A stretch of DNA of 62,026 bases from Thermoguttaceae bacterium (GTDB lineage Bacteria; Planctomycetota; Planctomycetia; Pirellulales; Thermoguttaceae): NCBI GenBank assembly GCA_029975295.1, contig JARKPK010000054.1, positions 1 to 62,026 of the forward strand, written 5' to 3'. Positions 8,499 to 11,226 of this stretch are shown piece by piece. The position numbers were made by a program, and so were the translations under genes. Every line of letters starts with the position of its first letter. The stretch's first letter is position 1. The notes under the pieces are model-generated. The model had not been told where the DNA came from. It worked only from the letters and a program-made list of their open reading frames with translations, and ran no database searches.

Positions 8499-8580
8499 CA
8501 AAAAACGGGGAAGGCGGTCGCCCGCCCGTCGAAGCGGCCGACGGCGTGTTTCGCCCCGCGAGGCAGCTTTCCGTTTTTTG
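8499..8580 (+). terminator. Terminator-like hairpin, probable riboswitch expression platform
   Basis: CAAAAAACGG (8499-8508) pairs with CCGTTTTTTG (8571-8580). The structure is extended inward by GGAA/TTCC pairing and a GC-rich interior, and the 3' arm ends in six T residues. It sits between the cobalamin aptamer and the first gene, where a conditional intrinsic terminator belongs. The long interior makes the fold less certain. Confidence 0.5.
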
Positions 8581-8658: not shown

Positions 8659-9471
8659 ATGCGTCCCAGCCCGTTCGCGCGTTGTCGCGGCTTTACGCTG
8701 GTCGAGCTGCTGGTCGTGATTGCGATCATCGGCCTGCTGACGGCGATCTTGCTGCCGGCTGTGCAGCAGGTGCGCGAGGCCTCGCGTCGGGCCGTGTGCT
8801 TGAACAACCTTCGGCAACTCGCCTTGGCGCTGCACATGCACCACGACGCCCAAGGCGCCTTTCCGCCGGGCGGGATCGAGCCGCGGGTGAACCCCAAGCA
8901 AACCCAACGGCGGCAACTGGCTTGGTCGGTGTTTTTGCTGCCGTACTTGGAGCAAAAGCAACTGTTCGAGCGGATCGACCAGAGCAAACCCTTCGATGCG
9001 GCCGAGAATGCCGCGGCGGCCTCCGAGGTCGTGCCGGTGTACCTTTGCCCGAGCGTGGTCCGAGTGTCGCCGCTGAACGAGGGCCGCGGCGCGTGCGACT
9101 ACGGCGGCCTCTACGGCGAAAGGATCACCTCGCCCAATAATCCGCCCAAGGGGGCGATGTTGTACGATCGGCGGCTTTCCGTGCGGCATATCACCGACGG
9201 CACTTCGACGACGATCTTTCTGGGCGAAGACGGCGGCTGGGTCGATGGCCAGTGGATCAACGCCAAAAACGTGTTCGACCAAGCCTACCCGATCAACTGG
9301 CAGCCTCCGCCCGGACAGATGAAGGAAAACGAAATCCGCAGCACCCACGGCGGTGGGGCCAACGTGGCCTTAGGCGACGGCTCGGCACGATTCCTTTCGG
9401 AAGAAATCGAGTTATCGACGCTGGCGGCGCTTTGCACCCGCGCCGGCGGCGAAAAGGTGGACGAGTTCTGA
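8659..9471 (+). CDS. DUF1559 pseudopilin-like protein of the cobalamin-riboswitch locus
   Basis: 270 aa. The N-terminus [20 protein letters not shown] is a type IV prepilin/pseudopilin signal (cleavage after the Gly before FTLVE), followed by the DUF1559 block AVQQVREASRRAVCLNNLRQL. The C-terminus has the family signature HGGGANVALGDGSARFLS. The ATG at 8659 is chosen because it places the cleavage site after a short basic leader (MRPSPFARCRG). Generic DUF1559 paralogues are abundant in planctomycetes and of unknown function. This one is distinct in being the first gene after the B12 riboswitch, 163 bp before a PEP-CTERM gene. Probably located in the inner membrane and periplasm or at the cell surface. 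A role in cobalamin handling is inferred only from context. Confidence 0.9.
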   Translation: MRPSPFARCRGFTLVELLVVIAIIGLLTAILLPAVQQVREASRRAVCLNNLRQLALALHMHHDAQGAFPPGGIEPRVNPKQTQRRQLAWSVFLLPYLEQKQLFERIDQSKPFDAAENAAAASEVVPVYLCPSVVRVSPLNEGRGACDYGGLYGERITSPNNPPKGAMLYDRRLSVRHITDGTSTTIFLGEDGGWVDGQWINAKNVFDQAYPINWQPPPGQMKENEIRSTHGGGANVALGDGSARFLSEEIELSTLAALCTRAGGEKVDEF

Positions 9472-9634
9472 TCGCCGCGGACATGGTTTGGCGATGGGTT
9501 GTGCAGGTGTCGTCGGAGTGTGCATCGCCTGGTCCGAATCGGGCGCATTTGTCGGCGGTGGAAGGCACAGTTGCTCGGCTTGGGGAACGATTCAGCTTTC
9601 TATCACCCTTTTTTCATCTTTGACGGAGGCAGCG

Positions 9635-10528
9635 ATGACGGTGATGTGTTGGTGGGCTATGCAACGGGCGAATGCTGCGCGCGGGCGCGGCGCCAGGCAA
9701 CGCGATTGGGTAATGGGACTTTGGTGCCGCAGGGCGGCAATGTTGGTGGGGTTGGTTTGGTCGGGCTGTTGTGTGCAGCAAGCCGTCGCGGCCGCGTTCG
9801 ACGACTTGCCGCTCGCCCCGAACTCGTATTGGAACGGCTCCGATATGAGCGGCGGCTTCACTACCGGTGGGGTGTTCTTCCCCAACAGCTATAACCCGTC
9901 GTGGGTGAGTTGGGAGGGCTGGGCGTATTCCAACCAAACCGACAACGTAACACCGGGCTGGGCAAATCAGTACTCGGCGATCACCGGCGGTGGGGTAGGT
10001 GGATCGGCCAATTATGGCGTTGCTTATCTGTCCGATTGGGCAGACGATGCCTTGCGCCGGGTAAGCGTTGGTTTTGCCAACGGTGCGCCCGGCGTGCATG
10101 GCTTCTATGTAACCAATACGACTTATGCGTATTATTCGATGCTCAACGGCGATTCGTTCGCCAAGAAGTTCGGCGGGCCCAGCGGCACGGATCCCGACTA
10201 CTTCCGGTTGGTGATCTCCGGCCTCGACTCGGCCTACAACCCGATTGCCGCGTCGCCGGTAACGTTCTATTTGGCCGATTTCCGCTCGGCCGATCCGGCG
10301 CAAGATTACATCGTCAATGATTGGCGCTTTGTGGACGTCGGCTCGTTGGTGAGCGGGGGAGCGGCCTACCTGTCGTTCAGCCTTGATTCGAGCGACACCA
10401 GCGCGTGGGGGATCAATACGCCCACGTATTTCGCCGTGGACCAGGTGCCCGAGCCTGCCTCGGCCATGTTGCTTTTGGCGGCCGCAGTAGGAGCGTGGTT
10501 TATGGGGCAGCGAAGGCGCTCCGCGTAA
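9635..10528 (+). CDS. DUF4465-type beta-sandwich protein with PEP-CTERM sorting signal
   Basis: 297 aa secreted protein. The ATG at 9635 has GGAGG five bases upstream. A signal peptide follows a basic region (about residues 27-53, ending VQQAVAAA). The mature part matches what I know of DUF4465: FDDLPLAPNSYWNGSD, GGVFFPNSY, YSNQTDNVTPGWANQYSA, YVTNTTYAYYSMLNGD, FAKKFGG, FYLADFRS, DYIVNDWRFVDVGSL and NTPTYFAVD. The C-terminus VPEPASAMLLLAAAVGAWFM plus GQRRRSA (271-297) is a classic PEP-CTERM tripartite signal for exosortase-mediated surface sorting. It lies second after the cobalamin riboswitch and 182 bp before cobO. From memory, DUF4465 proteins of Bacteroidota also occur beside cobamide-transport genes. 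A surface cobamide-binding role is therefore inferred, not shown. Confidence 0.88.
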   Translation: MTVMCWWAMQRANAARGRGARQRDWVMGLWCRRAAMLVGLVWSGCCVQQAVAAAFDDLPLAPNSYWNGSDMSGGFTTGGVFFPNSYNPSWVSWEGWAYSNQTDNVTPGWANQYSAITGGGVGGSANYGVAYLSDWADDALRRVSVGFANGAPGVHGFYVTNTTYAYYSMLNGDSFAKKFGGPSGTDPDYFRLVISGLDSAYNPIAASPVTFYLADFRSADPAQDYIVNDWRFVDVGSLVSGGAAYLSFSLDSSDTSAWGINTPTYFAVDQVPEPASAMLLLAAAVGAWFMGQRRRSA

Positions 10529-10710
10529 ACGGCGACGGCGGACGAGCAACGATTGGCGTTCGCACGGTCGGCGATGTGGCTTTGATGCGATAAGAGACGT
10601 ACTGCTCGGCGTCGGACGAGCATCGGCGCGCCGTATGCCGACAAGTTACGAGAAAAATGCGGCGCGGACGCCGAAAAGGCGCGAAGCTCCGTGGAACCGG
10701 GAGGGCAGGG

Positions 10711-11226
10711 ATGTCGGGCTACGTGCACGTGTACACCGGCGATGGCAAAGGGAAGACGACGGCGGCGTTGGGGCTGGCGCTCCGCGCCGCCGGAGCCGGC
10801 TGGCGGGTGTTTTTCGCGCAGTTCGCCAAGCCGAGCGGCAGCAGCGAATTCGACGCCCTAGGCCGCTTGGCCGACCGAATCACGGTTCGGCAGTTCGGCC
10901 TGCCCGAATGGATTCGCCCTCGGGCGAAATCGGCCGATTGTGAGGCTGCGGCGGCCGGTCTGGCCGAGTGCGCTCGGGCGATTACCTCGCGGCGGTATCG
11001 GCTGGTGGTGCTCGACGAGGCGAACCTCGGGCCGATGTTGGGGCTGTTCTCCGTCGAATCGCTGTTGGAGTTGATTGATTCGCGACCGGACGAAGTGGAG
11101 ATCGTTGTCACCGGCCGCTGGGCCCACCCGCGGGTTCTCGATCGAGCCGATCTGGTCACCGAAATGCGCGAAGTGAAGCACTACTATCAACGCGGAGTGT
11201 CGGCCCGACTGGGCATCGAATGCTGA
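10711..11226 (+). CDS. cobO: Cob(I)alamin adenosyltransferase, CobO/CobA family
   Basis: ATP:cob(I)alamin adenosyltransferase, which makes adenosylcobalamin from cob(I)alamin and ATP in the cytoplasm. 171 aa, slightly short for the family (about 180-200). It starts MSGYVHVYTGDGKGKTTAAL, containing the P-loop GDGKGKTT (10-17) characteristic of CobO. Further family marks are FFAQFAKP, the acidic strand RLVVLDEANLG and VVTGRWAHP, ending with the MREVKHYYQRGVSARLGIEC tail. The ATG at 10711 follows GGGAGGGCAGGG. It shares strand and context with the riboswitch and the DUF4465 gene, giving the locus a concrete B12 link beyond the RNA. Confidence 0.93.
   Translation: MSGYVHVYTGDGKGKTTAALGLALRAAGAGWRVFFAQFAKPSGSSEFDALGRLADRITVRQFGLPEWIRPRAKSADCEAAAAGLAECARAITSRRYRLVVLDEANLGPMLGLFSVESLLELIDSRPDEVEIVVTGRWAHPRVLDRADLVTEMREVKHYYQRGVSARLGIEC

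Follow-up and report, generated by a model that had tools for sequence, protein, structure and literature searches.

Here, we propose that the DNA analysed holds a B12-scarcity operon for the capture of cobalamin at the cell surface by an exosortase-anchored DUF4465 protein, a reading in which we have high confidence. The window, by which we mean the whole stretch of 62,026 nucleotides, belongs to the draft genome (G000) of a Thermoguttaceae bacterium, which is planctomycete-like, 5.01 Mb long in 190 contigs and 99.99% complete. On its plus strand, a cobalamin riboswitch is followed by a type IV prepilin gene of the DUF1559 family, by the DUF4465 gene with its PEP-CTERM tail, and by cobO/btuR (Table 1). 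An earlier note on this DNA had described a PEP-CTERM protein under B12 control, which is borne out by the domain (PF14717, E 4.6e-52), the tail (TIGR02595, over its cut-off) and an upstream riboswitch (RF00174, 80.1 bits); its reading of the protein as a means of surface-anchored ligand capture is supported by the B12 binding published for eight DUF4465 members, and by a tail and an exosortase that point to the surface. The prepilin as first gene, a BtuH-like partner, a missing TonB receptor and cobO in third place go beyond what that note had seen. The domains, tail, riboswitches, exosortase, gene order and conservation were each established by computation, and B12 capture by an exosortase-sorted protein is, on these sequence grounds, well supported.

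Table 1. Features of the riboswitch locus in the window
Feature	Positions	Strand	Evidence
Cobalamin riboswitch aptamer RF00174	8182-8415	+	Covariance model 80.1 bits, E 3.9e-18; gathering score 31.5
Terminator-like stem, possible expression platform (weak)	8547-8565	+	Lies in the gap between riboswitch and first gene
Type IV prepilin, DUF1559/SBP_bac_10, H-X9-DG C-terminus	8659-9471	+	PF07596 6.1e-47, PF07963 N_methyl 3.1e-8, TIGR04294, TIGR02532
DUF4465 (BtuJ-type) protein with PEP-CTERM tail	9635-10528	+	PF14717, TIGR02595; 297 aa
Putative signal peptide of the DUF4465 protein	9635-9793	+	Read by eye: hydrophobic stretch, AVAA end, then AFDDL
DUF4465 domain, tyrosines in DE loop NTTYAY and HI loop NTPTYF	9899-10447	+	PF14717, alignment to 9hmu/9fct
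PEP-CTERM sorting signal: VPEP, hydrophobic segment, RRR	10442-10516	+	TIGR02595 17.2 bits
cobO/btuR, ATP:corrinoid adenosyltransferase	10711-11226	+	PF02572 1.9e-55; ATG 10711 preceded by GGAGGG

The DUF4465 gene starts at ATG 9635, with GGAGG (9625-9629) five bases 5' of it, and stops at TAA 10526-10528; its frame stays open upstream to TTG 9488 and holds a further in-frame ATG at 9713. The scan found no plus-strand terminator-like site between the prepilin, the DUF4465 gene and cobO (10528-10711 included), and cobO is probably the third gene of the riboswitch unit. The stem at 8547-8565 is by itself no evidence for an expression platform, because the scan gave 8 terminator-like sites in 3.6 kb where shuffled sequence would give 4.9. 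A search of the genome gave one DUF4465 gene, and at least two cobalamin riboswitches, that of the window and another at C77:36946-37155 (150 of 286 first-look candidates scored).

That DUF4465 is a B12-binding domain is already known in print: cobalamin binding has been reported for eight divergent members, one of them from the planctomycete Mucisphaera calidilacus, and the ligand is contacted by an HI-loop tyrosine that 97% of homologues retain (PMC13398666). The window protein scores 177.4 bits against PF14717 (curated cut-off 25), and its closest solved relative, PDB 9hmu, is the D5EK51 protein from Coraliomargarita akajimensis (query residues 48-246 aligned, E 2.9e-33), whose structure holds bound B12, followed by BtuJ1 (9fct, E 5e-15). 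Its HI loop NTPTYF aligns with NTPSYF of 9fct, the NTPAY-type motif with the B12-contact tyrosine being present, and the TPxY tyrosine is kept in 104 of the 105 DUF4465 domains examined, the window protein included. By analogy with these relatives, we infer that the window protein binds B12. With BtuJ1 and BtuJ2 of Bacteroides thetaiotaomicron it shares the family (IPR027828), the HI-loop tyrosine, riboswitch control and export; the two Bacteroides proteins, however, are lipoproteins in loci with BtuB, BtuC and BtuD (PMC13398666), whereas the window protein has a PEP-CTERM tail and is encoded between a prepilin and cobO, in a genome where BtuB was not found. More than 70% of the family are lipoproteins and the remainder periplasmic (PMC13398666); inspection by eye flagged no lipobox in the window protein, which has the PEP-CTERM tail instead. 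The words PEP-CTERM and exosortase are absent from the main text of PMC13398666.

Control by B12 extends to the relatives. Of 392 planctomycete genomes, 13 encode DUF4465, in 14 loci altogether, and at all 14 a cobalamin riboswitch (39.9 to 102.7 bits) lies upstream on the same strand. A further 80 loci (the named loci) are the best 80 of at least 557 confirmed candidates from several phyla, ranked by planctomycete likeness and not a random sample; they were scanned with a riboswitch model built from 11 of the planctomycete-set riboswitches. An upstream same-strand riboswitch was found in 71 of these best 80, at 66 of the 71 no more than 1.2 kb from the open frame and at L082, L049, L065, L109 and L069 farther off, at 2.0 to 5.8 kb. 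Upstream sequence is short, 1 to 711 bp, in seven of the nine loci without one, and among the named loci with enough upstream sequence the count is 71 of 73. Thus, DUF4465 homologues do not lie consistently away from cobamide control, which the earlier note had named as the finding that would count against it. Cyanobacterial L037 and L072 gave no cobalamin riboswitch with either the RNA model or Rfam and are true negatives, and a riboswitch at every DUF4465 locus is rejected on their account; both encode PEP-type DUF4465 proteins with no recognisable cobalamin riboswitch or TonB receptor nearby. At L020, two cobalamin riboswitches stand back to back and diverge, 8896-9021 (-) and 9226-9430 (+), one facing the DUF4465 gene and the other a DUF1559 prepilin.

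The window tail scores 17.2 bits against TIGR02595 (cut-off 16) and 19.7 bits against PF07589, slightly below the cut-off of 20.7, and it is positive by our own tail rule (a P-x-P-like motif, a hydrophobic stretch and a basic tail), which 55 of 2533 shuffled ORFs pass. The earlier note held that the exosortase is absent from the window and must act in trans, and so it is: the sole match in the genome lies on contig C77 (C77:117883-118587; 133.9 bits, above cut-off; PF09721 170.5 bits), where it adjoins DUF3485 and Polysacc_synt_2 genes. The earlier note's other refuting outcome, a genome with no exosortase, is thus not what we see. All 13 planctomycetes with DUF4465 carry an exosortase; the background frequency is 171 of 392 in the whole set and 134 of 253 in genomes of good quality (hypergeometric p 1.9e-4 over the 253, relatedness ignored). 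The tail rule is passed by 12 of the 14 planctomycete-set proteins, the failures being L021, without a tail, and L022, which has VPEP without a basic tail; among the best 80 of at least 557, 44 proteins pass and 36 do not. Exosortase and TonB plug were searched in 49 genomes of these named loci, in which a DUF4465-ORF tail and an exosortase occur together in 26, the tail only in 2, the exosortase only in 4 and neither in 17 (Fisher p 1.2e-7). The two with a tail only (L033, L083) are records of 1.6 and 1.4 Mb, small enough to be perhaps incomplete; the four with an exosortase only are L052, L104, L106 and L112, of which L052 has VPEP and a hydrophobic end and fails the basic-tail rule. Tail and exosortase together place the window protein, by prediction, at the cell surface. 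It resembles other substrates of the PEP-CTERM/exosortase system (EpsH, TIGR02602) in its PEP motif, hydrophobic segment, basic tail and exosortase in trans, and differs from the usual case as a cofactor binder behind a B12 riboswitch, encoded outside the polysaccharide locus of the exosortase.

Other lineages end their DUF4465 proteins differently. A YPNP-type T9SS end is present in 9 of the 10 Bacteroidota proteins at the named loci (best 80 of at least 557), and the T9SS model TIGR04183 matched both proteins tested (L051, L101); a CFI-like box ends five proteobacterial or deltaproteobacterial proteins, one of which (L098) scores above the NCBIfam cut-off. Since the anchors differ by lineage, the B12 binder seems, as far as these termini tell, to be mounted on whichever anchor a lineage has. 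The five proteobacteria with the CFI-like box (L049, L065, L089, L098 and L109) are exosortase-negative, and the box is another putative sorting motif.

The second riboswitch of the window's own genome (minus strand) precedes a second PEP-CTERM protein, L031:8751-9758 (-). The family to which it belongs has no Pfam match except for a C-terminal dockerin or PEP-CTERM, and its members adjoin or fuse with DUF4465 at 9 of the 14 planctomycete-set loci and at 59 of the 80 named loci, sharing one ORF with it at 18 of the 80 (best 80 of at least 557). A model of one member (L070:10907-11539; 40-sequence alignment, pLDDT 95.7, pTM 0.92) gave a single Foldseek match below 1e-3 in the PDB, chain B of 8blw, a BtuB1-BtuG1 complex. 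VIA-align ranked 7biz first (Z 12.8, 160 residues, rmsd 3.1, 16% identity) and 8blw_B second (Z 11.6), with unrelated rows starting at 9.6; judging by title and residue range, we take 7biz to be BtuH2. Lower ranks hold discoidin/CBM32-like and SUN-domain chains (Z 8-9.6), which are taken as sharing a common arrangement. In addition, a sequence profile of the family matches the same region of 8blw_B at E 1.7e-4. BT_1490 and BtuH2 share a C-terminal region, which in BtuH2 binds B12 through Tyr510, Trp577, Trp511, His476, Asn399 and Gln333 (PMC8941943). Fold and weak profile match thus predict a BtuH-like family, nearest to Bacteroides BtuH (BtuH2; the C-terminal domain of BT_1490/BtuG1), from which it differs in its 16-18% identity and in having PEP-CTERM or dockerin tails and no lipid anchor.

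How might B12 reach the cell? A search for the single marker CbiC found no match in the 99.99% complete genome, so that corrin ring synthesis by this organism is not to be expected. A FecCD permease is encoded at C102:17487-18359 (273 bits), on a contig without a riboswitch match; it would pass B12, and it could serve iron. Neither the TonB plug (PF07715) nor the barrel (PF00593) has a match in this genome, again at 99.99% completeness. Of the 392 planctomycetes, 282 show a plug match, as do 9 of the 13 DUF4465 genomes, the exceptions among these 13 being G000, G097, G127 and G389. Six named planctomycetes with the module are also plug-less, the complete chromosome CP036526 (L104) among them, and in nine of these ten plug-less module genomes the barrel is likewise absent, G430 having one. 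From six DUF4465 genomes, 15 TonB receptor genes in 14 loci were collected (the receptors of G117, G212 and G348 were left out), and one of the 15 lies directly behind a cobalamin riboswitch (G291; L149:6218-6393 (-), 68.6 bits). The same planctomycete, G291, carries a DUF4465-prepilin locus, and since it has both, the receptor and prepilin routes can coexist; this receptor led us to reject the idea that BtuB has been replaced completely in every relative.

The window prepilin, read from ATG 8659, has a 10-residue leader ahead of G-FTLVEL, and in its structural model (mean pLDDT 64) only the N-terminal helix 4-55 is firm. Receptors and prepilins were counted at 59 loci of Planctomycetota/Verrucomicrobiota, 32 of other lineages and 2 labelled 'uncultured', the window locus being counted apart. 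A TonB receptor ORF is present at 21 of the 32 loci outside Planctomycetota/Verrucomicrobiota, at none of the 59 inside and at neither 'uncultured' locus; a prepilin is present at 1 of 32 outside (L088, a short match), 49 of 59 inside and both 'uncultured' loci, as well as at the window locus. Where both flanks exceed 3.5 kb, receptors stand at 13 of 16 loci outside versus 0 of 34 inside, and prepilins at 1 of 16 versus 30 of 34, the full-flank inside loci with neither being L039, L046, L061 and L110. Four of the 32 other loci, in which the Pfam plug and barrel were confirmed, served to train the receptor profile; L101 has a sub-threshold Pfam plug, and the remaining 16 of the 21 receptor calls rest on our own profile. 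Because the 14 planctomycete loci served to train the prepilin and partner profiles, only the named loci test these independently; there the prepilin is found at 36 of the 46 Planctomycetota/Verrucomicrobiota loci without a role in the profile (best 80 of at least 557). By motif only, 41 of the 59 loci are positive, and such ORFs number 42 in the 477 kb lying no more than 4 kb from DUF4465 and 1 in the 421 kb farther away. On our reading, the only other recurrent families at PVC loci were general neighbours and shadow frames.

The window prepilin has the leader, N-terminal helix and H-X9-DG end of planctomycete DUF1559/H-X9-DG prepilins, of which the genome holds 32 DUF1559 stretches in its 5.01 Mb. 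In a tree of 51 rows (whose 'other' row PAR_L123 duplicates the window prepilin), it falls in a B12-linked clade (98/96) of 12 B12-linked members plus the window copy, to which a further B12-linked clade of four is related; seven B12-linked prepilins of Phycisphaerae and Verrucomicrobiota form another clade (99/98) with a GWFxPxDNSxFDLK-like end. Exceptions are L028, which belongs to neither B12 clade, and a protein from the window's own genome, PAR_L128, which joins the base of one. Unlike other DUF1559 prepilins, the window subgroup is bound to B12 riboswitch loci and carries QWIN..N.FDQA, a motif of the window prepilin and 11 of its kind that is found in 0 of 25 other DUF1559 proteins from the same genome. 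The density control and the tree both speak against the prepilin being a chance neighbour from a large family, and we set that explanation aside.

In light of this, what might the operon do? At low B12, the riboswitch would let the transcript run through the prepilin, DUF4465 and cobO genes; we infer both this transcription as an operon and the hand-over of B12 that follows. The DUF4465 protein would be exported, its tail processed by the exosortase encoded in the polysaccharide locus elsewhere, and the protein would stay on the outer face of the cell and bind cobalamin with its jelly-roll loops; the BtuH-like PEP-CTERM protein behind the second riboswitch is a putative partner that would likewise be fixed there by the exosortase. 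For the crossing of the outer membrane, where no TonB receptor was found, the co-regulated prepilin is the candidate; captured B12 would then pass through the FecCD-type ABC permease to adenosylation by CobO. Extended to the Planctomycetota and Verrucomicrobiota, the idea is that a dedicated prepilin has replaced BtuB, and that a B12-specific pseudopilus or fibre, made only in scarcity, imports cobalamin together with exosortase-anchored BtuJ-like and BtuH-like proteins and without TonB. This extension is tentative, and we think it distinctly less probable than not. In planctomycetes, dextran has been reported to attach to pili-like fibres at crateriform structures and to reach the periplasm by an uncharacterised route (PMC5394234). 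By analogy, this uptake would fit a pilin route; PMC5394234 mentions neither DUF1559 nor TonB, and the link to B12 is our own proposal.

The main competitor concerns the prepilin. DUF4465 may capture B12 at the surface while the prepilin next to it has a structural role, for example as a matrix or fibre subunit that carries the binders, and B12 comes in by an outer-membrane channel that has escaped recognition; we give this an even chance. Such prepilins are numerous in the genome (the 32 DUF1559 stretches), the C-terminal domain of the window prepilin is weakly modelled (pLDDT 64), pore formation is not normal for prepilins, and G291, with a riboswitch-linked TonB receptor as well as the prepilin, indicates that the prepilin need not replace a receptor. 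Against this, prepilin-motif ORFs are dense only near DUF4465 (the 42 in 477 kb versus 1 in 421 kb), and most B12-linked prepilins group in two clades, separate from the bulk of the genome's other DUF1559 proteins.

Two further explanations touch the DUF4465 protein itself. Its tail may be vestigial and the protein periplasmic or released as a B12 carrier, as might be suggested by the tail-less members in exosortase genomes (L021 in G340, L104, L106, L112) and by the reported enrichment of B. thetaiotaomicron BtuJ on vesicles (PMC12751083); we consider this improbable, because tail and exosortase co-occur across phyla (Fisher p 1.2e-7) and 12 of the 14 planctomycete members keep the tail. Very improbable, in our judgement, is that the protein is an ordinary exopolysaccharide-associated PEP-CTERM protein and that B12 regulates the matrix. 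The position of the sole exosortase next to DUF3485 and Polysacc_synt_2 genes would suit it, but eight divergent members are reported to bind B12 (PMC13398666), and differently tailed homologues in Bacteroidota and others are riboswitch-linked too, many of them beside TonB receptors. Surface capture by an exosortase-anchored B12 binder thus stays our preferred reading.

In the openly licensed literature, we found neither exosortase anchoring of a B12-binding domain, nor the riboswitch-prepilin neighbourhood of DUF4465, nor a swap between receptor and prepilin from one group of phyla to another. Our analysis links the exosortase system, known chiefly from polysaccharide-rich matrices, with the acquisition of a scarce cofactor. 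It also suggests that a single B12-capture domain has been placed on each lineage's available surface anchor. Cobalamin has a mass of about 1,355 Da. A sharp question follows, as this exceeds the porin limit of about 600 Da (PMC5394234), yet nine module genomes have neither a TonB plug nor a barrel match. If a pilin does stand in the place of the receptor, the import of large molecules across the planctomycete outer membrane becomes testable with a small, traceable ligand.

The association of DUF4465 with the BtuH-like domain takes further forms. Giant ORFs of Planctomycetota, 1525 to 2027 aa long (L060:8000-12577, L086:6581-12013, L104:6563-12646 and L106:1366-7431), hold one BtuH-like and two or three DUF4465 domains per chain and lie beside a prepilin. 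The Pfam dockerin model matched only separate partner proteins, at L021 and L025. In Phycisphaerae (L035, L043, L045, L047, L048, L050, L056, L059, L105 and similar), DUF4465 is fused to the BtuH-like domain, and a dockerin-like tail replaces PEP-CTERM.
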